Shown here piece after piece: positions 10,952 through 40,110 of a stretch of 64,000 nt of DNA (positions are counted from its first letter, which is position 1; every line of letters begins with the position of its first letter). The DNA is from Okeania sp. SIO1I7 (lineage in GTDB: Bacteria > Cyanobacteriota > Cyanobacteriia > Cyanobacteriales > Microcoleaceae). The translations under genes and the position numbers were made by a program. The DNA lies in contig JAAHGF010000019.1 of the NCBI GenBank assembly GCA_010672585.1, forward strand, positions 35,473 through 99,472, in the 5' to 3' direction. The notes below the pieces were generated by a model. It made no database searches. It saw only the letters and a program-made list of their open reading frames with translations, and was not told the DNA's origin.

Positions 10952-13771
10952 TTATACTAAGTATGCTGCTAGCTTACCCACCCATTTCACGATAGATTTT
11001 GTAGCTTCTTTATTTTTTGACAAATAATTAATCACGTTTATTACTTGTTCTGCTTGTTGACGACTCATAAAATAGAGAAATAGTTTCTCTCTATGTTTAA
11101 ATGTTTCTGCATTATAATTTTCAATTTCTCTAATTACCCACCACTCCATTATTGCCGAAGTAAATGAATAGTTTGTGTTTTCTACAGTTCGTTTAATCAC
11201 ACATCGTTCTTCTAAATCCATTAATTCTCGTTCTTTATGATTGAAAACAACACTAATGTCACTCAAATCATAGCGTATTTTTTGTACGCGATCTTTCAAA
11301 TTATACAGTGCTATTAACATTAATAACTCTTGCTCTAATGGATTAGCAAGTTGCCATGTATCTTGAAAAAAATGTTTTGTTGCTGCAAAAAAATCTCTAG
11401 CAAATACCTCAGCACTAATAGTTTCTCCAGAGCGTATTGTGTTGTACAAAATAAACCCGGCATTTTGCAGTAAAGCTGGATTTCCACCTGCAATTTCTTC
11501 AATTCCCTCTCGTATTTCTCCTGTCATTGACATTCCACTAAGCAACATCCCTATTTCCTTGTCATTAAGTGGCGTTAATCGTTGAAATCCAAAATGATTG
11601 TACCAAGGAGATCCATCTGTTGTAAGACTAAAACCTTTTTCATTCAGGCGTCGCAATGAAGTCACAATCATTGAGAGGTACTTTCTTTCTTCCGAGTGAT
11701 GCGCCAAATTACGACATTCAGTCAAAAACACTTCTATATCAGTTTCAGTATACTGAGAGTGGGAGTTAAGAGTAGCATCATAATCATCTAAAAGTAGCAC
11801 TAAAAATTTATTTTGCTGACCTAATTTTTTCAAAATATAGCGCAGGTGATCTTTGGTTGATTTAGGCTTTTTTAGTAATTCTAGAATTATATTTTGTAAG
11901 ACAGAATCATCTTCAGTTTTTTCTCTAATTAAGTAAATAATCCTGCGCCAAAAACTAGCAGCCATGAAAGGCGTAATTTCTAGACAATTTAGATAAACAA
12001 TTACCGCTGTAGATGGATCTATATCTTGTGAGTGCCAAACTTGCTCAGATGTCAGCAGGTTAAGGAAAGAAGTCTTTCCCATACCAGGGGCACCCCAAAT
12101 AGCCAAATTACTGCGATTGTATATTTGGTCAAACGCGGTTGCGATTAGATTTTCCCGCCCCACAAAACGTTCTGGGGCAACTGGCTGACCAATAGTGAAA
12201 GGATTTCTCTCTATCTTTCTCTTTGGAGGTTGCTTAATTTCTATCAATCTTTCCTGTGCTAATGTGTTGTCAGGATCGAGATTTAATACTTTTTCAAACT
12301 GTTCCTTAGCTATTTCCCACTTTCTTTGCTCCATCAACTTTTGCCCGTAACCTAAAAGCGATTCCACTAACCCATCCTCAGCCAGGATTGGATTAACTTG
12401 ATATCCTCGTTGGTAAAATTCGATTGCCTTGCCAAAGTCTTCAAGCACCAGATATGCTTCTGCCAAATCAAATAAAACCTTGAAATGGTTGGGGTTGATT
12501 TCCAAAACCTGCTCGTAAATAGCAATGACACTCGTCAGCGTAACTAATGTTTGTCGCAACTCTGTCGCTAATTTATAAATATGACTAGCTTCTGAACTCA
12601 GATTCTCCAGTTCCTGTACTTCTCCTCTCAGAGAATATCGTTTCAATAGCCAACGACGAACTAATTCAATTTTTAGTCTATATCTAGGAACCTTCTCCAA
12701 AGGTAACTCTGAACTCTCTAGCGTATCTAAGACACCCCATTCAACTAATCGATCTGCTGCTTGAAACAGAGATTCTGTAGGCACAACTCCATACTCTTTC
12801 AACAGTGTCAATGGTTCCTTCACAACTTGAGTAGGTTTCATAGCTGCTATCCTTTGAGCTTCTGCTACTGCTGAGAATATCACTCGCTCCGGTACTGGCA
12901 GTCTATCCCGAAACCATGTTAACCCACCTTCAGCACTTTTAATTGCTCTATCTACAACAATATTATTCACATTTGCGCTCCTCACCTGCCAATTATTTTC
13001 TGCTTCTACCTGCTGGAAAACTTGAAAACAGATTACTTGTGTAAAATAGGGATGACCTGCGGAAAGTTCTAATATGGCTGCGATCGCATCCTCTCCATAT
13101 TCCAGCACTCCCTCAGCAGGTTTGGCAATCAACTGGGCAGCACTTTTGTCATCTAACAAACCAATTTCTTGATTTGGCGCTCTCCGAAATAAATTGAGTA
13201 GGTTCTTCATATCATCCAGTCGCCTTCCTACAACTGGAATAATGAAAAGTTGCTGATGATTTGAAATAATAGACCCTAAGTAGGGAAAAAAATCTTCTAT
13301 TGCTGATGTCGGATTATCATTGCTCAAGACATCAAATTCATCCAGTAACAAAACTAAATTTCGATCGCCTAAATTTTCAAATACTTGAGGTAAAAATTTT
13401 TCAGAAAAAATCTCACTATTTGCTTCTAAATCTGTCTTTAAAGGTGGCTTTATATTATCTTGTTTTAGCTCAACCTTTCTAATTATTTCTGTAGCTAAAT
13501 TTTCCAATACTTCTGCAAGAGTTAACCTAGCTTTATCTTGAAGATCGAAGTAAACAAAAACAAACTTATCTCCTCCCACAAAATTAGGAATTTGATATAA
13601 AACAGATGACTTACCTATTCTACGTTGACCATGTAACAAGATAACATCTTCATTATTGTTCAAGTTAGCATCTATAAAGTTAAACAGATTGTCTCTACCA
13701 AAAAATAATTCCTTTTCATAAATTGGACGACCAATGATATAGGGATTTTTTCGATTAGTTGAAGATATCAT
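10952..13771 (-). CDS. Double NTPase with central TPR (STAND-like AAA ATPase fusion)
   Basis: 939 aa with two AAA-type ATPase modules. Module 1 (about 10-385): Walker A GQRRIGKSS at 48 and Walker B LVLLLDEFD at 139. Then TPR-like helices at about 395-515. Module 2 (about 521-939): entry motif NPFTIGQPVAPERFVGRE, Walker A GAPGMGKTS at 560 and Walker B LVLLLDDYD. The architecture suits a STAND-type switch that binds partners through TPRs, perhaps signalling or defence; no effector domain is seen. The neighbouring gene (14080-15366) is a decayed paralogue of module 2, so the locus has undergone duplication. ATG at 13771; no clear ribosome site. Confidence 0.75.
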   Translation of the reverse strand: MISSTNRKNPYIIGRPIYEKELFFGRDNLFNFIDANLNNNEDVILLHGQRRIGKSSVLYQIPNFVGGDKFVFVYFDLQDKARLTLAEVLENLATEIIRKVELKQDNIKPPLKTDLEANSEIFSEKFLPQVFENLGDRNLVLLLDEFDVLSNDNPTSAIEDFFPYLGSIISNHQQLFIIPVVGRRLDDMKNLLNLFRRAPNQEIGLLDDKSAAQLIAKPAEGVLEYGEDAIAAILELSAGHPYFTQVICFQVFQQVEAENNWQVRSANVNNIVVDRAIKSAEGGLTWFRDRLPVPERVIFSAVAEAQRIAAMKPTQVVKEPLTLLKEYGVVPTESLFQAADRLVEWGVLDTLESSELPLEKVPRYRLKIELVRRWLLKRYSLRGEVQELENLSSEASHIYKLATELRQTLVTLTSVIAIYEQVLEINPNHFKVLFDLAEAYLVLEDFGKAIEFYQRGYQVNPILAEDGLVESLLGYGQKLMEQRKWEIAKEQFEKVLNLDPDNTLAQERLIEIKQPPKRKIERNPFTIGQPVAPERFVGRENLIATAFDQIYNRSNLAIWGAPGMGKTSFLNLLTSEQVWHSQDIDPSTAVIVYLNCLEITPFMAASFWRRIIYLIREKTEDDSVLQNIILELLKKPKSTKDHLRYILKKLGQQNKFLVLLLDDYDATLNSHSQYTETDIEVFLTECRNLAHHSEERKYLSMIVTSLRRLNEKGFSLTTDGSPWYNHFGFQRLTPLNDKEIGMLLSGMSMTGEIREGIEEIAGGNPALLQNAGFILYNTIRSGETISAEVFARDFFAATKHFFQDTWQLANPLEQELLMLIALYNLKDRVQKIRYDLSDISVVFNHKERELMDLEERCVIKRTVENTNYSFTSAIMEWWVIREIENYNAETFKHREKLFLYFMSRQQAEQVINVINYLSKNKEATKSIVKWVGKLAAYLV

Positions 13772-16868: not shown

Positions 16869-19800
16869 ATGAAACGCATTGTCTTAATCGCAGGTTTTGA
16901 ATCTTTTAACACTGGTTTATACCGTCAAGCAGCTCAACTGGCAACTTCCCAATGTTCAGATTTAGATATCCAAGTATTTAGCGATCGCGCTCTTTCCCAA
17001 GAACCAGAAACTGTCGCTACTGCTCTGGAAAATGCTGATGTTTTTTTCGGCAGTCTGCTGTTTGACTACGACCAGGTGTTATGGTTGCGCGAAAGAGTAC
17101 AACATATTCCCATCCGTCTTGTTTTTGAGTCAGCACTGGAATTGATGGCATTAACAAAATTGGGAAAATTTATTATTGGCGACCAACCGAAAGGAATGCC
17201 AAAACCAGTCAAATTTATTCTCAGCAAATTTTCCAGTGGGAGAGAGGAAGACAAACTTGCAGGTTATATCAGTTTCCTGAAAACAGGTCCGAAATTACTC
17301 AAATTTGTACCAGTGAAAAAAGTGCAAGACCTCCGCAACTGGTTGATAATTTACGGTTATTGGAATGCAGGTGGTACAGAAAATGTGGCTGCCATGTGTT
17401 GGGTGTTGGCAGAAAAATATTTAGATTTAAAAGTTGGAGAAATTCCCCCACCAGTGGAAACTCCCAATATGGGTTTGCTACATCCAGACTACCAGGGTTA
17501 TTTTGAGTCTCCCAAAAAATATCTGGAATGGTATCGCCAACAGAAGCAAACTTCTCCCACTCCAGTTGTAGGAATTTTGCTCTACCGCAAACACGTCATT
17601 ACTAAACAACCATACATTCCTCAACTTATCCGTAAATTTGAAGAAGCAGGTTTAACACCTCTACCTGTATTTATTAACGGAGTCGAAGGTCATGTCGCTG
17701 TCAGAGACTGGATGACCAGCGCGTGGGAAAGTCAGAAGTCAGAAGTCAGAAGTCAGAAGTTAGATGAAAGTCAAAAGTATGATTCTGTTGCAAGTCAAAA
17801 GTTAAAAGTTAGAAGTCAGAAGTATGATTCTGTTGAAAGTCAAAAGTTAAAAGTTAAAAGGCAAAAGTTGGAAGTTAGAAGTCAGAAGTATGATTCTGTT
17901 AAACCAATACTTTCCTTATCTCCCGAAGCAGTGAAAGTTGATGCAGTGGTTTCAACTATTGGTTTTCCATTGGTGGGGGGTCCTGCGGGTTCCATGGAAG
18001 CAGGACGACAGGTGGAAGTTTCCCAACGCATCCTCACTGCGAAAAATGTACCTTATTTTGTGGCAGCACCCCTACTTATTCAAGACATCCATTCTTGGAC
18101 GCGCCAAGGTGTGGGAGGTTTGCAAAGTGTAGTTTTATATGCACTGCCAGAATTAGATGGAGCGATCGATCCTGTTCCCCTGGGTGGTTTGGTGGGAGAA
18201 GATATTTATTTAATTCCCGAAAGAGTGAAACGTCTCACGGGTAGAGTCAAAAATTGGATAAAACTGCGTCAGAAAGCGCCCGCAGAAAGAAAAATAGCTG
18301 TTATCCTCTATGGTTTTCCTCCCGGTTATGGTGCTACAGGTACAGCAGCTTTATTAAATGTGCCGCGTTCTCTCCTGAAATTCCTCCACGCTCTGAAAGA
18401 GGAAGGTTACGACGTTGGGGAAATTCCCGAAGATGGGGAAGAACTTATTCGTCAAATTAAAGAAGCAGACGAAATTTATTCTTCTTCCTCTCCCTTTAAC
18501 AAGGATAAAACCCACTCCTCTTCTTCTTCCTCCCCCCTTGGGAAGGGGGGAACGAGGGGGGATCGAAACCAAGACCTTCCGGGAATGAGGGGGGATAACA
18601 ACCAAATCAATATTAAAACCCTAGAAAAATGGTTAGGTTATCTATCAACAACTCGCATGGAAAAACAATGGGGAAATCTCACCCGCACGGGTATAAAAAC
18701 CGATGGTGAAAATTTCCATATTGGCGGAATTAAATTAGGAAATATTTGGCTAGGAGTACAACCCCCCCTGGGAATTTCTGGCGACCCCATGCGCCTAATG
18801 TTTGAAAGAGATTTAACCCCCCATCCCCAATATGCTGCTTTTTATAAATGGCTCCAAAATGAATTTCAAGCTGATGCAGTTGTTCACTTTGGAATGCACG
18901 GAACTGTGGAATGGTTGCCCGGTTCACCCTTGGGAAATACTGGCTATTCTTGGTCAGATATTCTGTTAGGAAATATGCCACATCTATATATATATGCTGC
19001 TAATAATCCTTCCGAATCTATGTTGGCAAAACGTCGGGGTTATGGAGTATTAATTTCTCATAATATTCCTCCTTATGGTCGGGCAGGTTTATATAAAGAA
19101 TTAGTCAGTTTGCGAGAATTAATTTCTGAATATCGGGAAGAACCACAAAAAAATTCGGGGTTGCGGGAACCGATTTTTAAGAAGATTATTGATACTGGTT
19201 TAAATTCAGATTGTCCGTTTGAGTATGGCAAAAAATTAGGGATTGAATTTACTCCAGAAAATGCTCGGATGTTTAGTGCAGATGTAGTTAATCCCTATTT
19301 TGTCGAAATTTACGAATATTTGCAGGTAGTAGAACAAAGATTATTTTCTTCTGGTTTGCATACTTTGGGAGAAGTTCCGAATCAGGAGGAATTAAAATCT
19401 TATTTGGAGGCTTATTTTGGGGAAGAAATCGCAGGGCTAGACTCGGATTTGGGGCACGGATATCTCGACACGGATTTGGGGCACGGATATACGGATGATA
19501 GAGTTAATAAAGACGTGGGAAATATGCGGGATTTGTTGGTGCAAAATTCTGATAAGCTAGACTCGGATTTGGGGCACGGATATACGGATTATTCTGTTAA
19601 TCAAGATGCTGTAAATATTCGGGATTTATTGATGCAAAATACTGACGAACTGACTAATCTTTTGCGCGGATTAAATGGAGAATATATTCCCGCTGCTCCA
19701 GGAGGAGATTTATTAAGAGATGGTCCGGGAGTTTTGCCAACTGGTCGAAATATTCATGCTTTAGACCCCTATCGAATGCCTTCTCCTGCTGCTTATGAAA

Positions 19801-20921
19801 GAGGACGAGAAATTGCCAATAAAATTATTAATCAACATCTGGAAGAAAATAATAATTATCCCGAAACTGTGGCAGTAATGTTATGGGGTTTAGATGCTAT
19901 TAAAACTCGCGGTGAATCAATCGGAATTTTATTAGAATTAGTAGGTGCTGAACCAGTAAAAGAAGGTACAGGTAGAATCGTTCGTTATGAATTAAAGACT
20001 TTAGCTGAAGTCGGTCATCCCCGCATCGATATTTTAGGAAATTTATCTGGAATTTTCCGAGATAGTTTTGTCAATATCATTGAATTATTAGACGATCTAT
20101 TCCAACGAGCAGCAACCGCAGACGAACCCGTAGAACAGAATTTTATCCGCAAACACGCTTTAGCACTACAAGCGCAAGGTATAGAAAATGTTTCGGCACG
20201 GTTATTTTCCAATCCCGCTGGTGATTTTGGTTCCTTAGTAAACGACCGAGTTGTCGATGGTAACTGGGAGTCAGGGGATGAGTTGGGTGATACTTGGCAA
20301 GGACGAAATGTCTTCAGTTACGGTCGTCAGGACAAAGGTCAAGCACGACCAGAAATTTTGCAAGAGTTGTTAAAAGGTTGCGATCGCATCGTGCAAGAAA
20401 TTGATTCGGTGGAGTATGGTTTGACAGATATTCAGGAATATTATGCTAATACTGGTGGGTTAAAATTAGCAGCAGAAAAACAACGGGGTAAAAAAGTAAG
20501 TGCGAGTTTCGTCGAAAGTTTCTCCAAAGATACCACCCCCCGAAAATTAGAAGACTTGTTGCGGATGGAATATCGCACGAAATTATTGAATCCAAAATGG
20601 GCAGAAGCAATGGCAAATCAAGGTAGTGGGGGAGCTTACGAGATTTCCCAACGAATGACCGCATTGATAGGTTGGGGTGGCACCGCTAATTTTGCGGATA
20701 ATTGGGTTTATGATGGTGCCGCCGACACTTATGCTTTGGATGCAGAGATGGCGCAGAAATTACGGGAGGCAAACCCAGAAGCGTTTCGGAATATTATTGG
20801 GCGGATGTTGGAAGCGAACGGACGCGGTTTTTGGCAAGCAGATGAAGAGAAGTTGGAGAAATTGCGGGAGTTGTATGAGGTAGCGGATGAGGATATTGAA
20901 GGTGTGAGTAGCTTGGGTTAA
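16869..20921 (+). CDS. chlH: Magnesium chelatase large subunit (ChlH/BchH-type paralogue) with three in-frame repeat insertions
   Basis: 1350 aa. The large subunit binds protoporphyrin IX and receives Mg2+ with ATP hydrolysis by ChlI/ChlD. The start MKRIVLIAGFESFNTGLYRQ and regions such as VHFGMHGTVEWLPGSPLGNT and LLRDGPGVLPTGRNIHALDP are typical of the CobN/Mg-chelatase family. The N-terminus differs from the main cyanobacterial ChlH and looks like the second, BchH-like paralogue, which is about 1240 aa. The extra length is explained by three insertions: residues about 288-344 (repeated SQKLKVRSQKYDSV units), about 537-577 (Ser-rich, then GKGGTRGDRNQD) and about 856-924 (three SDLGHGY units plus a duplicated segment). 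The DNA of the first two matches intergenic repeats. Frame is kept throughout, so it may be functional. ATG 16869; only a weak ribosome site. Confidence 0.88.
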   Translation: MKRIVLIAGFESFNTGLYRQAAQLATSQCSDLDIQVFSDRALSQEPETVATALENADVFFGSLLFDYDQVLWLRERVQHIPIRLVFESALELMALTKLGKFIIGDQPKGMPKPVKFILSKFSSGREEDKLAGYISFLKTGPKLLKFVPVKKVQDLRNWLIIYGYWNAGGTENVAAMCWVLAEKYLDLKVGEIPPPVETPNMGLLHPDYQGYFESPKKYLEWYRQQKQTSPTPVVGILLYRKHVITKQPYIPQLIRKFEEAGLTPLPVFINGVEGHVAVRDWMTSAWESQKSEVRSQKLDESQKYDSVASQKLKVRSQKYDSVESQKLKVKRQKLEVRSQKYDSVKPILSLSPEAVKVDAVVSTIGFPLVGGPAGSMEAGRQVEVSQRILTAKNVPYFVAAPLLIQDIHSWTRQGVGGLQSVVLYALPELDGAIDPVPLGGLVGEDIYLIPERVKRLTGRVKNWIKLRQKAPAERKIAVILYGFPPGYGATGTAALLNVPRSLLKFLHALKEEGYDVGEIPEDGEELIRQIKEADEIYSSSSPFNKDKTHSSSSSSPLGKGGTRGDRNQDLPGMRGDNNQINIKTLEKWLGYLSTTRMEKQWGNLTRTGIKTDGENFHIGGIKLGNIWLGVQPPLGISGDPMRLMFERDLTPHPQYAAFYKWLQNEFQADAVVHFGMHGTVEWLPGSPLGNTGYSWSDILLGNMPHLYIYAANNPSESMLAKRRGYGVLISHNIPPYGRAGLYKELVSLRELISEYREEPQKNSGLREPIFKKIIDTGLNSDCPFEYGKKLGIEFTPENARMFSADVVNPYFVEIYEYLQVVEQRLFSSGLHTLGEVPNQEELKSYLEAYFGEEIAGLDSDLGHGYLDTDLGHGYTDDRVNKDVGNMRDLLVQNSDKLDSDLGHGYTDYSVNQDAVNIRDLLMQNTDELTNLLRGLNGEYIPAAPGGDLLRDGPGVLPTGRNIHALDPYRMPSPAAYERGREIANKIINQHLEENNNYPETVAVMLWGLDAIKTRGESIGILLELVGAEPVKEGTGRIVRYELKTLAEVGHPRIDILGNLSGIFRDSFVNIIELLDDLFQRAATADEPVEQNFIRKHALALQAQGIENVSARLFSNPAGDFGSLVNDRVVDGNWESGDELGDTWQGRNVFSYGRQDKGQARPEILQELLKGCDRIVQEIDSVEYGLTDIQEYYANTGGLKLAAEKQRGKKVSASFVESFSKDTTPRKLEDLLRMEYRTKLLNPKWAEAMANQGSGGAYEISQRMTALIGWGGTANFADNWVYDGAADTYALDAEMAQKLREANPEAFRNIIGRMLEANGRGFWQADEEKLEKLRELYEVADEDIEGVSSLG
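17731..17900 (+). repeat. In-frame simple repeat inside chlH-like gene
   Basis: Starts as a four-fold AGAAGTC-type repeat and continues as three units of about 45 bp (GTCAGAAGTATGATTCTGTT then AAAGTCAAAAGTTAAAAGTT). The same seven-base motif is common in intergenic DNA, for example at 533-555 and 31470-31505. It encodes residues about 288-344 of the large chelatase subunit, absent from relatives as I remember them. Confidence 0.85.
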
Positions 20922-27363: not shown

Positions 27364-29205
27364 ATGAAAATGTTAAGAAACTTACAAGGGGGCAAATATA
27401 CATTAGAACAAGAATTAGGAAGGGGAGGTTTTGGTATTACTATCAAGGCTACTCATAATTATTTAGGACAACCCGTAGTGATTAAGACTCTCAATGAGTC
27501 TCTATGTCAACATCCCAACTTTCAGGAATTTCAAAGGAAGTTTCAGGATGAGGCAAGAAGACTCGCTTTGTGTGTCCACCCTAATATTGTCAGAGTCAGT
27601 GATTTTTTTGTAGAAGATAGTCAACCTTACATGGTGATGGACTATATTCCGGGTAAAACTTTAGCAGAAGTTGTATCTGGTGGACAACCTCTACCAGAGG
27701 CGATCGCTGTGCATTATATTCGTCAGGTAGGGAATGCTTTGATGGTGGTGCATCAAAATAACTTACTCCACCGAGATGTTAAACCCCAAAATATTATGCT
27801 ACGTCAGGGTACTGAGGATGCAATCTTAATTGACTTTGGTATTGCACGGGAATTTATTGCTGGTAAAACTCAGGTTCACACTAATTTGGTTTCTGATGGT
27901 TATGCTCCTCCGGAACAGTATTTTGTTCAAGGAAAACGTACCGCAGCAACAGATGTATATGGTTTAGCTGCAACTCTCTATACTTTATTAACAGCACGAC
28001 TGCCAATACCAGCAATGAGTAGAGCGCAACAAGAAATCCCTGCTCCCAGGGAGTTACAGCCTCAACTAAGTGGTACTGTTAATCAAGCAGTGCTAGAAGG
28101 TATGGCAATGGATATTCAACACCGACCTACAATTGTGGAGGAATGGATAAAATTGTTATCAAATTCTAGCACAACTAATTTACATTCAACTATCCAGGTT
28201 GTACCTCAACAGCATCCAGCTCATAATCTGGGAAATGGAAAAATTGCTACTACAAATATTCCTCCTACACAAAGACCTAAAAGAATATTGATGTGGGGTA
28301 TACCCGGAGCGATCGCTACTTTCACAGTAGGAACATTAGCAGCAATATTGTTAAATTCTCAGCCCTCTGACACGCCACCTATAGTTCAAACTCCCGCACC
28401 ATCTCCCACCGTTAGACCATCAGATATTGCTCAAACTCCTATATCAAAACCAACTGCACCTCCTACACCATCTCCAAAGTCTAATGATACGGAGCAATTG
28501 CCCAATTTTACTCCTACCCCATCACCATCTCCACCTCCAACCCCTACTCCTGTTCCTCCTATTGTTAGACCAACCCCTACTCCTTCACCTCCAGTTGAAA
28601 AACCTACACCCATACCACCTACAGTTGAGCCAACTCCAGTACTAACTCCAACTCCAACTCCAATACTAACTCCAACTCCAACTCCAACTCCGGTTCAACC
28701 TCCCCAAGATTCAGTTCCTGATATACCTATAGATTTAATACTGCCAGATAATATTCCTTCCGACCCTATTGATAATTCTACTATTAGGGATCGGTTGCCG
28801 ATTATTCGTGGTTTACCTCCAGGCACCTTAGAAAGTAAAGTAATAGAATTATTGGGAAAACCTACAAAAGTTAAAGAGCGTGGTTATTGGCCTAATACTA
28901 GGGCTGTGATTTATGATTTACTTCCTAATAAAGTTAGTCTAGGTTATCTATACGATCGGGACTCTCGTCGCTTACGACAAACTGAGTTGTCTGTGGCAGA
29001 TAGTATAGATAACCTAATGGTAAGAACCGCTTTCAGTGGTATGTTGAATTGGAGAATTACTCCAGAAATTAAGCAAGGACTGCAGGATGTGCGAAACCGT
29101 AAAATTAATCGCTACGAGTTTAAAACAGGTAATCTTGAAGGTCTAATTGAGCGTAGTAGGAATGATCTTGTCTATATTGGTGTGTGGGAAGATGATTTAC
29201 ATTAA
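27364..29205 (+). CDS. Membrane-anchored Ser/Thr protein kinase with unknown C-terminal domain
   Basis: 613 aa. Kinase domain at 12-265: Gly loop LGRGGFG, Lys41, catalytic HRDVKPQN at 136-143, DFG at 157-159, and APPE at 181-184, so all catalytic residues are present. One membrane helix at about 308-331. Then a Pro/Thr-rich linker at about 335-460, encoded by CTCCAA-type minisatellite DNA. A C-terminal domain follows at about 475-613 ([20 protein letters not shown] and onward), seen in cyanobacterial kinases, function unknown and probably outside. The layout suggests a receptor-type Hanks kinase. Start ATG 27364; no strong ribosome site. Confidence 0.88.
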
Positions 29206-31550: not shown

Positions 31551-33575
31551 ATGCCTGTAGTAAACCCTCCCACCATCATCAACTTTCCTTTAGCTGCCGT
31601 AGTCGGACAAGAAGCAATCAAACTAGCCCTATTGTTAGCAGCCGTCGATCCGGGATTAGGAGGAGTTGCCATTGCTGGCCGTCGTGGTACTGCCAAATCG
31701 GTAATGGCCAGAGCGCTACATTTACTCCTGCCTCCCATTGAAATTGTTCAAGGGTCTATTAGTAACTGTAATCCTAACTATCCCGAAGAATGGGACAACC
31801 AACTATTAGAGCAGTATGGCGACCCCACATCAGTAGAAATTCCCACTGAAGTTATACCCGCACCTTTTATTCAAGTTCCTCTAGGAGTAACAGAGGATAG
31901 ATTATTAGGTTCGGTAGATGTAGAAAAATCAGTCAAACAGGGAGAAACAGTTTTTCAACCAGGATTATTAGCATCAGCTCACCGAGGAGTATTATATGTA
32001 GACGAAATTAATCTGCTGGACGACAATATTGCCAATTTATTACTCACAGTCCTCACAGAAGGACGAAATCAAATAGAACGAGAAGGCATTAGTTTTCAAC
32101 ATCCTTGTCAACCTCTATTTATTGCTACCTATAATCCAGAAGAAGGGCCACTGCGAGAACATTTGCTGGATAGAATAGCGATCGCCCTCTCAGCAGATAT
32201 GGTTTTAGGTTTAGACCAAAGGGTGGAGGCAGTAGAACAAGCTTTAGCTTATGCTAAATCTCCCCAAGCATTTCTCGAACGATATGCAGAAGATATAGAT
32301 AATCTCAAAACTCAGATTCTTTTGGCTAGGGAATGGATAAAAGATGTCACCATCACTAACGAACAAATCCAATATTTAGTAGAAGAAGCAATTCGTGGAG
32401 GTGTGCAAGGACATAGGGCAGAACTTTTTGCCGTGCGAGTAGCCAAAGCATCAGCAGCAGTGGATGGACGGACAACAATTAATGCCGATGACTTGCGTCG
32501 GGCCGTGGAATTAGTTATTGTGCCACGGGCAACAATAGTGCCAACTCCTCCAGAAGAGGAGCAACAACCCCCACCTCCACCACCACCCCCACCAGAAGAC
32601 CAGTCTCAAGATGAGCAAGAGGAGGATGAGGATGAGGACGAGGAAAACCCGGAACCTCCAGAGGAAGAAGAGGCAAGTATTCCTGAAGAATTTTTGTTTG
32701 ACCCGGAGGGAGTGGTGCTGGATGATAGTGTGCTGATGTTTGCTCAAACAGCAAACCGTCAAGGTAAGTCTGGTAGTCGGAGTGTGATTTTTTCTGAAGA
32801 CCGGGGGCGTTATGTGAAGCCAATGTTGCCCAAGGGTCAGGTCCGACGTATTGCGGTTGATGCGACTTTGCGAGCTGCTGCTCCTTATCAGAAGTCTCGC
32901 CGCGAACGTCAGCCAAATCGTAAAGTGATTGTGGAACCTATTGATATGCGAGCAAAGCGTTTGGCCAGAAAGGCTGGTGCTTTGGTGGTGTTTGTGGTTG
33001 ATGCTTCGGGTTCGATGGCGTTAAATAGGATGCAGTCGGCGAAGGGAGCGGTGATGCAGTTGTTGACGGAAGCTTATCAGAGTCGGGACCAGGTGTCGTT
33101 GATTCCTTTTCGGGGGGAACAAGCGGAGGTTTTGTTACCGCCTACTCGTTCGATAACTACAGCGCGACGACGTTTGGAAAAGATGCCTTGTGGTGGGGGT
33201 TCGCCTTTGGCCCATGGTTTGACTCAGGCGGTGAGAGTGGGTGTGAATGCCAAGCAGTCTGGTGATGTTGGGCAGGTGGTAATTGTGGCTATTACAGATG
33301 GGCGGGGTAATATTCCGTTGGCGCGTTCGTTGGGTGAACCGATATTGGATGATGAGAAGCCGAATATTAAGGAGGAGTTGTTGGAAATTGCTGGTAAAGT
33401 TCGGGGTTTGGGGATTCAGTTATTGATGATTGATACTGAGAATAAGTTTGTTTCGACTGGGTTTGCCAAGGAGTTGGCGAAGCAAGCAGGGGGTAAGTAT
33501 TATCATTTACCTAAGGCGACAGATCAAGCGATCGCTGCTATGACTCAGAATGCTCTCAAGGATGCTATTGGGTAG
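31551..33575 (+). CDS. chlD: Magnesium chelatase ATPase subunit D
   Basis: 674 aa. The D subunit forms a ring platform with ChlI and contacts ChlH to insert Mg2+ into protoporphyrin IX, the first committed step of chlorophyll synthesis. N-terminal AAA+ domain at 5-330, with GRRGTAKS at 43-50 and [10 protein letters not shown] at 147. A Pro/acidic linker at 334-380 (nine Pro in a row, then Asp/Glu runs). C-terminal VWA domain at 478-674 with MIDAS DASGSM at 484-489. Length fits ChlD (about 670-680). A small inverted repeat TTGGGTA/TACCCAA spans the stop codon but has no T-run. The chlH-like gene is 10.6 kb upstream, not in one operon. Confidence 0.95.
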
Positions 33576-34891: not shown

Positions 34892-37783
34892 ATGAATATT
34901 TTAGGTAAAAATTGTCATATTCCTGCAGAAAATCTACAATGGAGTGAACGTATCACCATTACTCAAGGTGATATTATTTCTCAGCAAGTAGAGGCAATTG
35001 TTAATCCAACTAACAATAATCTCCGCAGTTACGGACTATGTACCAAAATTCATCAAGCAGCAGGAGAAGCACTAACAAGTGCAACCAGACAAATAGAATG
35101 GCTCGATATCAGTGAAGCTAAAATCACTAAAGGCTATCAACTCCAGGCTTCATACATCATTCACACTTGTGCCCCAGTTTGGGATAAAACTAACAGCCAA
35201 ACCTCTAGTCAACAGTTAGCTCAATGTTATCATAACTGTCTGGAGGTAGCAGCAAAAAATCAAATTAATACTCTCGCTTTTCCCTGTATCAGCACTGGAA
35301 TGCGCGGGTTTCCCAGAGATTGGGCTGCAAAAATAGCCATGACAGAAGTGGTGAAATTTTTACAACACAACTCTCTCCCCTGGAAAATAATTTTTGTCTG
35401 TCGCGAGTCAGATGATTACGAACAATATCAAGTACATCTACCAACTGATATAACTTCTCCCACTTTCTCCGAACAAACTCAAGCCCAAATTGCGAAAAGT
35501 TTAGTTGCTCAAATTGAATGTCAGCGTAGAGTCGCTATTATTGGCAGTACTTCCTTTTGGGGTGTGACTACGGAGGCAATATGCAAAGCTACTGGTAGAC
35601 AACTGGCAACATTAGAAAATTTAGCTCTGTTGACGGGTGGAGTTATGGGGGTACCCGAAGCAGTCTCCCTGAGTTTCTGGCGAGAGTGTCAACAGCAAAA
35701 TAAATTTGCCCCAGTTTACCATATTCAACCTGCTGGATTTGAACTGTGGGAATATGGTGTAAATTTGTATGGAGGCAAAACCTTATCTGAGCGCCGAGAA
35801 ATTCTGGCTCAGATGGCATCAATATATATACTTATTGAAGGTGGGCCTGGAGCTAAACAGGAGGCAGAAACTGCAATGGCAGCAGGTGCAGTGGTGATTC
35901 CGGTGGGAGTAACGGGAGGTTTTGCTAAGGAACTTTATCAAAAAATGTCTCGTCCTTATTATATACCTTTCCAGTTGTGGCAAAAGTTAGGGGAAGGCTA
36001 TATTTCATCGGAAACTGTGGCAGAAGCGATCGCTCAAATTATGGAAAAAATCTGGCAACGTCCCAAAGATGTGATGTTTAACCCTGACAAAAAATCTGTT
36101 ACCGATCTAGAATTGCGTTCAGCACTAGGGGTTAATTACCGGAAGTTGCGAGATTTATTAGCAGCATCTCAATGGCAAAAAGCAGACTGGGAAACTTTCC
36201 GCTTGTTTTGTGAAATTGCCCTGAGAGTAGAAGTACACAAAGGTGTTAGGGAAATTCGGGAAATTTTGAAGACAATTAACAAAAATACTCAACCAGATAG
36301 ATTTTACGAACTCACTGACTTGCTGCAATATTATCAGACAATGTTTCACAGTATTCATCAACAGGAGTTTCCTTCTTCTTCATTTTATGGTTATCTTCCT
36401 GGTTGCCTCAATTGGAAATTTATTAATAAACTACCTTTACTAGATTTACAAACAATTGATTTACTTTGGATGGTATATTCTTGTGGGCATTTTGGTTTCA
36501 GCGTGCAGGAAAGAATTTGGCAGACATTATTTACTCAGGATGAGGCGAAGGTAGAGGAAAATTTTATCAGTTGTGTAGGACGCGGTTATTCTCAAGGTGA
36601 AGATGCTTATCAGGAGGGTGAAAATTTTACCCTGAGTTCTCCAGAGGGGTTGTTACCTTGGCTTAACTGGTATGATGCTGGGGGTAATCTTCACGGTATA
36701 GAATGTGATGGCAAGTTACGTTATTTGACGGGTGGGTTTGCTCAGAAGGGTGTGATGAGAAAGCTATGGCAAGAGGGAATTCGCAAAAGGTTGGAAGTGG
36801 GAGATAATGATTTTTCTAATTGCGTGCTCAGTGGTTTAAATTTGCAGGGTTTGAATTTTCAAGGTGCTAATCTCAGGGGTGCCGATCTACGGAATGCTAA
36901 CTGTGAGGGAGCAGTATTTGCCGATGCCGATCTTAGAGGTGCTAATTTAGTAGGAGCCAAATTTTCAGTGGGAGCTTTGCAAGAGGCAGTTATCGACCGG
37001 AGTGATGGGTGCAGTCGTCAATGGTTGAAATCTTATACTATTCTAATTGTTGATGATTCTATTATTGTTCGTCAACTTTTGAGTACGACTTTTACTAATG
37101 CTGGTTATGAGGTAGAAATTGCTAGAAATGGAGTAGAAGCTTGGGAAAAATTACAAAATAATTTACACATTGACTTAATTTTATTAGATCTAGAAATGCC
37201 AAGAATGGATGGTTATGAACTAACTAAAAAAATCCGAAATGATTCTAAGTTGAAAAATATATTAATCGCTATTTTGACTAATCGTAGTATACCTAGAAAT
37301 AAGCAGAAAGAAATTCAGGAAGAATTTAATTATTGTTGTTATTTGAACAAACCTTTTGCTGAGGAAAAAGTGTTAGAAACAGTCAATAATATTTTCAACA
37401 GAAGCGTGAAGCCTGAGACTATTCTAATTGTGGATGATTCTATTACTATTCGTGAACTTTTGAGTATGACTTTTATCAAAGCTGGCTATCAGCTAGAAGT
37501 AGCAAAAGATGGCTTAGAAGCTTGGAATAAATTGCAAAATAATTTACACATTGATTTGATTTTATTAAATATAGAAATGCCGAAGATGGATGGTCAAGAG
37601 TTAGCTTTGAAAATTAGAAGAGATTCTAAGTTACAAAATTTACCAATAGTTTTTATGACTTCTCGGGGAGCATCAAGAATGGGCGTACCAATTGAAAAAT
37701 TAGTTAAAAATTGTGCTTACTTAACAAAACCTTATGTTGAAGAAAATGTGTTAGATACTGTAAAAAGTTTATTGAAGAAATAA
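34892..37783 (+). CDS. Macro - SLOG - GUN4-like - pentapeptide - REC - REC fusion protein
   Basis: 963 aa, cytoplasmic. Macro domain at about 18-185 (TQGDIISQQVEAIVNPTNN; loop ISTGMRGFP), which binds ADP-ribose in this family. SLOG/LOG-like Rossmann domain at about 208-390 (LLTGGVMGVPEAVS; EGGPGAKQEAETAMAAGAVV), which binds or cleaves nucleotides. GUN4-like domain at about 404-600 (ALGVNYRKLRDLLAASQW; DLQTIDLLWMVYSCGHFGFS; SSPEGLLPW), a porphyrin-binding fold, here with an insert of about 70 residues. Pentapeptide repeats at 639-690. Receiver 1 at 715-835 with phospho-site Asp766, acidic D721/D722, T796 and K820. Receiver 2 at 843-963 with D848/D849, T923 and K946, but Asn893 at the phospho-site, so it is a pseudo-receiver. 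The two receivers are near-repeats (WxKLQNNLHIDLILL). No membrane or DNA-binding part. No ribosome site before ATG 34892. Confidence 0.85.
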   Translation: MNILGKNCHIPAENLQWSERITITQGDIISQQVEAIVNPTNNNLRSYGLCTKIHQAAGEALTSATRQIEWLDISEAKITKGYQLQASYIIHTCAPVWDKTNSQTSSQQLAQCYHNCLEVAAKNQINTLAFPCISTGMRGFPRDWAAKIAMTEVVKFLQHNSLPWKIIFVCRESDDYEQYQVHLPTDITSPTFSEQTQAQIAKSLVAQIECQRRVAIIGSTSFWGVTTEAICKATGRQLATLENLALLTGGVMGVPEAVSLSFWRECQQQNKFAPVYHIQPAGFELWEYGVNLYGGKTLSERREILAQMASIYILIEGGPGAKQEAETAMAAGAVVIPVGVTGGFAKELYQKMSRPYYIPFQLWQKLGEGYISSETVAEAIAQIMEKIWQRPKDVMFNPDKKSVTDLELRSALGVNYRKLRDLLAASQWQKADWETFRLFCEIALRVEVHKGVREIREILKTINKNTQPDRFYELTDLLQYYQTMFHSIHQQEFPSSSFYGYLPGCLNWKFINKLPLLDLQTIDLLWMVYSCGHFGFSVQERIWQTLFTQDEAKVEENFISCVGRGYSQGEDAYQEGENFTLSSPEGLLPWLNWYDAGGNLHGIECDGKLRYLTGGFAQKGVMRKLWQEGIRKRLEVGDNDFSNCVLSGLNLQGLNFQGANLRGADLRNANCEGAVFADADLRGANLVGAKFSVGALQEAVIDRSDGCSRQWLKSYTILIVDDSIIVRQLLSTTFTNAGYEVEIARNGVEAWEKLQNNLHIDLILLDLEMPRMDGYELTKKIRNDSKLKNILIAILTNRSIPRNKQKEIQEEFNYCCYLNKPFAEEKVLETVNNIFNRSVKPETILIVDDSITIRELLSMTFIKAGYQLEVAKDGLEAWNKLQNNLHIDLILLNIEMPKMDGQELALKIRRDSKLQNLPIVFMTSRGASRMGVPIEKLVKNCAYLTKPYVEENVLDTVKSLLKK

Positions 37784-38616: not shown

Positions 38617-40110
38617 ATGAAACTTTTACTAAATTATTTGACAATTATAATTAGCTTATTTTCCCTGCAAAACTTAGCTTTAGCAGAAACAAATACTCTA
38701 GAAAATCAACCTCAAAAACCTCCGTCAGTAAAAATATTTCCTACGAATTTTCAGCCAGAAACAGCAGAGCAAAAATTAGCTGAAGCAGACAGACTTTATT
38801 TAGCAGGAGAAAAAGTAGCGGCCGAAAAACTTTACCGAGAAGTAAAAGAACCATTTTCTGAAGATATTGAAGCTAAAATTAATCGTCCTAAAGCAATTTA
38901 TGAACCCACAAAATTACCAGTAACAGCTCAAGTTTATTGGCGACAAGTACAAGAAGGGTTAGCCAAAAATCTAGAAACTCAAATATTTGTAGCTTTAGAA
39001 TTATTAGTCAAAGAATATCCTGAATTTATTCCAGCTCATATTAAACTTGCAGAAGTATTAAAAGCTGATGAACAAACAGAATTAGCCTTAGAAATATTAC
39101 ATCAAGCAGCGAATTTATATCCTAACGAACCAGAATTAATGAAAGCTCAAATTACTGCCCTAGCAAATGAAAAAAAATGGTTAGAAGCAACTTTATCTGC
39201 CCAACAATTTGCTTTAATGAATCCCGAACATTCCCAAGTTGATGAATTTAATCAATTAGCAGAAACCTACAGAAAAAAATTTCAGTCTCAGCTCAAATCA
39301 AAATTAAGAGGAAATACAATTGCTAATGTTGTAACTGGTGCTTTAGGAGTAGCTCTAACTGGTAATCCATTTGCTGCTATGAATGCAGTTCAAACAACAG
39401 CATTAATGCTCCGAGGAGAATCAAGAATTGGCAAAAATTTAGCAAAATCTGCCACTAAAAGTTTACCTATGGTTGAAGATGAAACAATTCTTGAATATGT
39501 TGATACTATGGGGCAAAAACTTGCAAAAATGACTGGTAGAGACGAGTTTGAATATCAGTTTTATATAATCAATGATGAAAACCTTAATGCTTTTGCTTTA
39601 CCTGGTGGGCAAATATTTATTAATTTAGGAGCAATAGTTAAAACAAATTCTGAAGCAGAATTAGCAGGTTTACTTGCTCACGAACTAGCTCATACTGTAT
39701 TATCTCATGGATTTCAGTTAATGTCTGAAGGTAATTTAATTAGTAGCGTTACTCAATATATTCCTTATGCGGGTGGTGTAGTTAGTAATTTAATTGTACT
39801 TAACTATAGTAGAGAAATGGAACGCCAAGCAGATGTACTAGGAACGCGAATTTTAGTATCAGCAGATTATGCAGCAGATGGGGTTAGAAATTTGATGAAT
39901 ACTCTGAATAAAGACACAGAAGATAGAGGTATTATTGCTTGGTTATCTACTCATCCAGAGACAGCAGAAAGGGTACGTTATTTAGAGGAGTTAATTGTTA
40001 ATAGTGGTTATAATCGTTATGCTTATGAAGGAGTAGTTTATCATGGGAAAATTCAGGCAAAAGCTAAAGCATTATTAGTAGAAAAGAAAAAGGATTTTTC
40101 AGAAATTTAG
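38617..40110 (+). CDS. M48 family metalloprotease with TPR region, exported
   Basis: 497 aa. A signal peptide at 1-24 (LLLNYLTIIISLFSLQNLALA, cut before ETN). TPR-like helices at about 100-225. A Gly/Ala helix at 228-260 and an M48 peptidase domain at about 280-480 with zinc motif HELAH near 355 and the downstream Glu in EMERQADVLG. The order signal - TPR - M48 recalls a BepA-like envelope quality protease with its modules reversed. It probably acts in the periplasm or outer-membrane assembly. Downstream is a GGGGAGTAGGG minisatellite. Confidence 0.85.
   Translation: MKLLLNYLTIIISLFSLQNLALAETNTLENQPQKPPSVKIFPTNFQPETAEQKLAEADRLYLAGEKVAAEKLYREVKEPFSEDIEAKINRPKAIYEPTKLPVTAQVYWRQVQEGLAKNLETQIFVALELLVKEYPEFIPAHIKLAEVLKADEQTELALEILHQAANLYPNEPELMKAQITALANEKKWLEATLSAQQFALMNPEHSQVDEFNQLAETYRKKFQSQLKSKLRGNTIANVVTGALGVALTGNPFAAMNAVQTTALMLRGESRIGKNLAKSATKSLPMVEDETILEYVDTMGQKLAKMTGRDEFEYQFYIINDENLNAFALPGGQIFINLGAIVKTNSEAELAGLLAHELAHTVLSHGFQLMSEGNLISSVTQYIPYAGGVVSNLIVLNYSREMERQADVLGTRILVSADYAADGVRNLMNTLNKDTEDRGIIAWLSTHPETAERVRYLEELIVNSGYNRYAYEGVVYHGKIQAKAKALLVEKKKDFSEI

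Follow-up and report, generated by a model that had tools for sequence, protein, structure and literature searches.

A rare fusion of macro, SLOG, GUN4-like, pentapeptide and receiver domains in Okeania and Hydrocoleum, with a possible role in signal integration

Domain architecture and distribution of the fusion

A stretch of 64,000 nucleotides from Okeania sp. SIO1I7 (contig JAAHGF010000019.1, positions 35,473 to 99,472 of the forward strand; hereafter, the window), part of a 9.48-Mb assembly of 109 contigs, encodes at 34892..37783 on the plus strand a protein of 963 amino acids (aa) in which macro, SLOG, GUN4-like, pentapeptide and two receiver domains follow one another in a single chain. 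The open reading frame (ORF) begins with ATG, in the same start region as its relatives, and all Pfam domain calls exceeded the curated cut-offs. From the N-terminus, and all on the plus strand, these comprise a macro domain (Macro, 107.1 bits; aa 18-185, 34943..35446), a SLOG domain (LDcluster4 at 31.7 bits, cut-off 26.3, and STALD at 29.6 bits, cut-off 24; aa 206-395, 35507..36076), a GUN4-like domain in two stretches (82.9 bits), pentapeptide repeats (53.0 bits; approximately aa 641-700, 36812..36991), and two receivers (Response_reg, 145.3 bits in two stretches; aa 714-835, 37031..37396, and aa 841-963, 37412..37780). The first part of the GUN4-like domain (approximately aa 403-450, 36098..36241) was located by phmmer and hmmsearch to the structures 1z3x and 1y6i, and the second (approximately aa 513-610, 36428..36721) by Pfam and alignments; the insert that separates them spans about 60-70 residues, roughly aa 451-512 (36242..36427). 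This order, and an insert given as 70 residues, had been proposed in a preliminary description made from the letters of the window, and both are borne out. SIR2 was not among the 12 Pfam families found at E <= 1 in the protein. The best 19-residue hydropathy segments (1.6 and below) lie in the SLOG and receiver cores; because two controls from the window reached only 1.61-1.62, simple hydropathy cannot separate transmembrane (TM) from non-TM proteins here.

The nearest named relatives are Okeania and Hydrocoleum records, given by a scan of genome contigs whose strict peptide patterns cannot show distant relatives to be absent. The macro-SLOG-GUN4-pentapeptide-receiver order was recovered from five further genomes, SIO2B3 (G250; gene L057), SIO2C9 (G608; L056), SIO2F4 (G613; L058), SIO3I5 (G285; L059), and Hydrocoleum CS-953 (G612; L060), and this recurrence shows that the fusion is not an assembly accident. 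Together with the source genome they fall into two genus-level groups, g1 (SIO1I7, SIO2B3, SIO2C9) and g5 (SIO3I5, SIO2F4, CS-953), both of which contain records called Okeania. Five of the six genes are intact (four of the five further ones), and that of CS-953 is split inside the macro domain, from decay or assembly error. The part as far as the first receiver is shared, so that the order first described recurs up to that point, and the second receiver is found in only three intact genes. The distribution is patchy: within the order, three of 291 sampled genomes (SIO1I7, SIO2B3, SIO3I5) matched aa 1-640 almost in full; this SLOG occurs in seven of 61 family genomes, six times as the fusion and once (G586) as a SLOG frame of 205 codons only; and a phylum-wide draw of 386 genomes matched it in three (SIO1I7, G282, and G495, where the match is a broken fragment). 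The gene of G282 (L029) encodes SLOG-GUN4-pentapeptide-receiver without macro, and a further protein (L061) is macro-SLOG without the remaining domains; thus, the modules have been mixed, with macro-SLOG as a unit. Short ORFs of the same SLOG subfamily (GSTSFWG; L062 and L063) were also seen in an Eisenbacteria and a Gemmataceae metagenome-assembled genome (MAG).

SLOG-Macro fusions of DNA viruses contain the same domain pair and are interpreted, in the article that describes them, as acting on derivatives of ADP-ribose (ADPR) (PMC9503650). In contrast, the window gene is chromosomal and adds GUN4 and receivers, most SLOGs of those viral proteins belong to a different clade, and none of 11 matches on viral contigs in one pattern scan was a relative. 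Plasmid records with a match numbered 358, none covering 80% of the query; among the 15 listed, no match starts ahead of residue 673, so that they all start within the receiver region or immediately before it. As the preliminary description had supposed, no published account of this domain order was found, within the open-access literature. The window protein genuinely combines known domains in a conserved but rare arrangement, and its novelty lies in their order and not in their kind.

The macro and SLOG domains

Both N-terminal modules had been named as nucleotide-type folds; Pfam upholds the two of them, and a structural model the second. The macro domain aligns full-length with MACROD1/2 and bacterial MacroD proteins, in which the Asp of the GGGVDG loop matters for catalysis. 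That loop reads RSYGLCT or GYGLCS in the fusions and ISPGLCS in L061, with the Asp replaced by Cys (Cys50 in the window protein) in all seven macro-SLOG sequences (motif GLC(T/S)), a departure from the MacroD hydrolases. Judged by these residues, the macro domain would more likely be a reader than a hydrolase. A similar case is reported for Thoeris, where the macro domain of a TM-macro type of ThsA bound ADPR and hydrolysed neither of the two substrates tried (PMC11204291). Macro-like stretches were also noted elsewhere: a kinase-GUN4-GUN4-macro protein (L005/L010, G000:C88:174496-175998; 906 aa scanned) is a second combination of GUN4 and macro in the source genome, and two ORFs of 608 aa (L031, L034) end in a macro-like stretch whose Asp loop departs from MacroD, with a front that is von Willebrand-type by eye.

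SLOG families were reportedly named by Burroughs et al. in 2015. The AlphaFold model of this one (predicted local distance difference test, pLDDT, 87.9) has the Rossmannoid fold and GG-G-E loop of the superfamily, and alignment of nine sequences, including two from MAGs outside the cyanobacteria, revealed an invariant E-R-R (300-302) and EGGPG...E (316-324), including R301 and E324 in all nine. By Foldseek, the model is nearest to the SLOG domain of BcThsA with 3' cyclic ADPR (3'cADPR; E 1.6e-8), and Foldseek and VIA-align also match it to LOG and PpnN. E324 aligns with position 403 of BcThsA chain 6lhx, sequence matches being weak (best ThsA E 9e-4 and 2e-3); E403 is the Glu reported to coordinate 3'cADPR (PMC10022894). 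Similarly, the EGGPG loop resembles that of TRPM2 in a weak match (E about 0.03), and the TRPM2 SLOG region is reported to bind ADPR (PMC13143021). The Foldseek result, the E324/E403 correspondence, the TRPM2-like loop, and the MacroD-like macro domain together favour chemistry of the ADPR kind for both N-terminal modules. A count against this is that VIA-align ties ThsA, TM1055, and a protein binding molybdenum cofactor (Moco) for the SLOG model, as might be expected if the domain bound Moco or another pterin within a metabolic regulator that had no link to signalling by nicotinamide adenine dinucleotide (NAD). That explanation is highly improbable: it would leave the coupling to a macro domain unexplained, and Foldseek ranks Moco carriers 28th and lower.

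LOG-type phosphoribohydrolases have a catalytic Arg and Glu and the motif GGxGTxxE. The invariant R301 and E324 and the fold matches to LOG and PpnN would therefore suit a receiver-gated nucleotide hydrolase, in which the SLOG domain, a LOG/PpnN-like N-glycosidase or ribohydrolase, is switched by phosphorylation of receiver 1 and the macro domain binds the ribose product or substrate; such enzymes do occur in the SLOG superfamily (PMC9503650). However, the Thr of the motif is Ala in the six fusions, and Foldseek ranks a sensor domain first, which together make a hydrolase unlikely, though still deserving of serious weight, when set beside an ADPR-type reader. PADLOC matched the SLOG domain to ThsA models (best E 4e-6), and the GUN4 region (E 6e-21) and a receiver (E 4e-8) to PD-T4-6 models; these were all taken as domain sharing and not as membership of either system.

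The GUN4-like domain and the genomic neighbourhood

The GUN4 region matches solved GUN4 structures by phmmer (best E 6e-11) and belongs to the same sequence family as GUN4 proper (sll0558 type). Because the AlphaFold model of this part with its insert failed (pLDDT 46, unused; the insert is mostly helical there), the GUN4 fold is assigned by sequence. The insert is present in all six aligned fusion genes, the window gene included, and absent in L029. In Synechocystis GUN4, F196 and R214 contribute to porphyrin binding (PMC8967248), and the bilin motif of GUN4 is LxNxLR (PMC10156173). The window protein, unlike GUN4 proper, lacks the porphyrin-binding Phe and Arg, having E577 and D595 at these positions, and its bilin motif is reduced to the Asn, N592; the residue set of a GUN4 orthologue is thus not retained.

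The source genome contains 23 GUN4 matches. The best is the canonical GUN4 (L001), which is the only row with F, N, and R together in an alignment of ten own-genome rows (two of the same frame) and the window protein, from which L011, L018, L020, and L022 were left out as giving no motif; in the same alignment the residue facing R214 is Arg in L006 and L024 also, and most paralogues have gaps across the site. Pfam scanning of 15 other GUN4 frames (L001 and four fragments left out) found a further domain in 11, namely TIR-TIR, NACHT, KAP (two), trypsin, caspase (two), kinase (three), and the kinase-GUN4-GUN4-macro arrangement, and GUN4 only in four. This resembles the published cyanobacterial fusions of GUN4 paralogues to signalling or effector domains, including kinases, caspases, trypsin, and TIR, for which tetrapyrrole sensing was proposed (PMC7159879); caspase homologues with GUN4 are also reported in Microcystis (PMC5756287), and a table of genes mutated in a cyanobacterial strain resistant to phage includes a GUN4-kinase gene, a listing that does not demonstrate a role (PMC10811720). 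The window protein differs in that its GUN4 domain is central and carries an insert, and in that SLOG and receivers are not partners in any of the 15 scanned frames. With the porphyrin-binding Phe and Arg absent and a canonical GUN4 encoded elsewhere in the genome, porphyrin sensing appears doubtful; the loss of contact residues argues for a role other than tetrapyrrole sensing, and that of an adaptor is proposed. As the two contacts were lost and selection was nonetheless kept, the published tetrapyrrole-sensor reading is questioned for this protein (PMC7159879).

Among the GUN4 frames, the TIR-TIR-GUN4 protein (L101, G000:C66:399814-401241; 476 aa) has a further TIR frame beside it. It was considered as a dedicated messenger maker and rejected as a fixed partner, a relative at E <= 1e-60 being present in only two of 60 family genomes, SIO1I7 and G607. 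The relative in G607, a genome that retains no more than a relic of the fusion, is 51% identical over aa 146-417, and among the six fusion genomes only SIO1I7 has the protein. In another frame (L110, G000:C77:134000-139000), a kinase-GUN4 ORF ends partway through GUN4, with a GUN4 tail about 1.2 kb beyond, as in an interrupted gene.

At its locus the fusion is a solitary gene, separated by 0.57 kb from the ORF before it and by 0.83 kb from the M48 peptidase gene that follows (38617..40110, plus strand). Upstream lies a magnesium-chelatase D-type, ChlD-like protein of 674 aa (31551..33575, plus strand); Pfam also assigned a ChlH-like protein of 1350 aa (16869-20921), a Ser/Thr kinase (27364-29205), and a STAND-type NTPase of 939 aa with tetratricopeptide repeats and two AAA stretches (10952-13771, minus strand), and the rest of the scanned ORFs are housekeeping or unassigned. 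Pfam scanning of 30 of the 38 other window ORFs of 90 aa or more, the nearest ones included and eight small ones left out, gave no TIR, SIR2, or histidine kinase; TIR_2 has seven matches elsewhere in the genome. Scanning for promoters and terminators gave 21 promoter-like sites vs 14.2 expected and three terminator-like sites vs 3.9, with no clear unit.

The ChlH-like and ChlD-like genes in the same window, the 82.9-bit family match, and the kept bilin-motif Asn would agree with a tetrapyrrole sensor tied to Mg chelatase, in which the GUN4 domain binds porphyrin or bilin and acts on the ChlD and ChlH encoded nearby, and the preliminary description had likewise looked to porphyrin and chlorophyll. 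However, the order chlD-fusion-M48 is confined to g1, and other genes lie upstream of the fusion in g5: chlD is not in the 5.4 kb upstream of the SIO3I5 gene or the 3.5 kb upstream of that of SIO2F4, and in all three g5 genomes (fragmented assemblies) it is on a different contig from the fusion. The Mg-chelatase link was accordingly set aside, and with Glu and Asp in place of F196 and R214, and those residue types in the separate L001, such a sensor is very doubtful. As for the chelatase genes themselves, the ChlH-like and ChlD-like starts lie within 15 kb of each other in the window and about 0.8 Mb apart in G282, and in SIO3I5, SIO2F4, and SIO2B3 the match to ChlH is interrupted around residues 870-924 while the frame remains open, as though this in-frame segment varied among relatives.

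Downstream, M48 is present in SIO2C9 and SIO2B3 as well, whole after the gene of SIO2F4, and as its last 100 residues only after that of SIO3I5. In G607 (g1), only end pieces of receiver 1 and a piece of receiver 2 remain between chlD and M48; G616 (g5) retains short, degraded remnants of receiver sequence ahead of M48, as weak matches (E 6e-10 to 5e-5); and G153 (g5) has no relic within 2.1 kb upstream of M48. The contig of G609 (g1) ends exactly between chlD and M48 and does not count as an absence. The patchy presence and the relics suggest an accessory gene whose home is beside M48 and which was lost more than once. In SIO2C9, the last 43 residues of M48 recur twice downstream of that gene, 355 bases apart (L056 11250-11733).

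Receivers, constraint, and proposed working

The key residues of receivers are DD, D, T/S, and K. Receiver 1 has all of them (D721, D722, D766, T796, K820), with the phospho-acceptor D766 encoded by GAT at 37187-37189, and receiver 2 has D848, D849, T923, and K946 around N893 (AAT, 37568-37570) at the phospho-acceptor position, just as had been read from the sequence earlier. Receiver 2 apparently cannot be phosphorylated, if its residues are a guide. The g1 form has two receivers and the g5 form one, and Asn893 is AAT in all three intact two-receiver genes and Asn also in the G607 relic. The single receivers of SIO2F4 and SIO3I5 share 75% and 69% identity with receiver 1 and 59% and 54% with receiver 2, and receivers 1 and 2 are 56% identical to each other; from these identities, receiver 1 is the counterpart of the single receiver, and receiver 2 was added or evolved faster.

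Ratios of nonsynonymous to synonymous substitution (dN/dS; Nei-Gojobori method, own script) were obtained for six pairs, or three pairs for receiver 2, with small counts within g1. Every domain is under purifying constraint, with dN/dS below 1: 0.09-0.19 for macro, 0.14-0.36 for SLOG, 0.03-0.35 for the GUN4 halves, 0.15-0.64 for the insert, 0.09-0.29 for the pentapeptides, 0.24-0.41 for receiver 1, and 0.29-0.65 for receiver 2, the weakest-constrained domain; constraint is more relaxed in the linkers, at 0.31-1.56 (aa 186-205) and 0.25-0.87 (aa 611-640). A short-lived, decaying domain mosaic without a settled role could account for the relics in G607 and, weakly, G616, the split frame in CS-953, and the values of up to 0.65 in receiver 2; however, the range of 0.03-0.36 over six pairs in macro, SLOG, and both GUN4 halves, and the same order in two genus-level groups, make it quite improbable.

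The reading preferred here, tentatively and without rating it an even chance, is that the fusion is a probably cytoplasmic signal integrator of the cyanobacterial GUN4-fusion stress and conflict repertoire, an ADPR-type nucleotide reader gated by receiver 1 with GUN4 as adaptor. NAD cleavage would yield ADP-ribose-type nucleotides (ADPR, cyclic ADPR isomers, or base-exchanged ADPR) to be read by the macro and SLOG domains, the former binding its nucleotide without hydrolysing it. The GUN4-like domain, with most known tetrapyrrole contacts lost, may serve as an adaptor instead of a porphyrin sensor, and the pentapeptides as a spacer. A kinase would phosphorylate receiver 1 at Asp766 and so gate the complex, with receiver 2, in the two-receiver form, as a putative non-phosphorylatable, fixed dimerisation partner. 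Phosphotransfer to D766 is likely and not certain, since a nucleotide-responsive switching role has been suggested for receivers that occur in conflict systems without histidine kinases (PMC8195603).

An anti-phage use is possible. Among the nearest known systems is Thoeris, whose ThsA, in SIR2-SLOG and TM-macro types, is alike in its SLOG fold and, in the second type, its macro domain. The window protein differs from ThsA in having no SIR2, in carrying macro and SLOG in one chain with GUN4, pentapeptides, and receivers added, and in having no ThsB or TIR neighbour among the scanned window ORFs. In a bolder version, which is improbable on present evidence, the protein would read two NAD-derived messengers through both Thoeris sensor folds, SLOG and a non-hydrolytic macro; its degenerate GUN4 domain would be the adaptor that it has in common with TIR-, caspase-, and NACHT-GUN4 proteins in the same cell, and a phosphorelay of one live and one dead receiver would arm or disarm it. 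If that were true, cyanobacterial GUN4 paralogues would be an immunity adaptor family, and nucleotide immunity would be tied to two-component control. Macro and SLOG are sensors of two separate anti-phage nucleotide pathways, and their joining under two-component control would show signal integration; the window protein makes the role of the many GUN4 paralogues in filamentous cyanobacteria testable.

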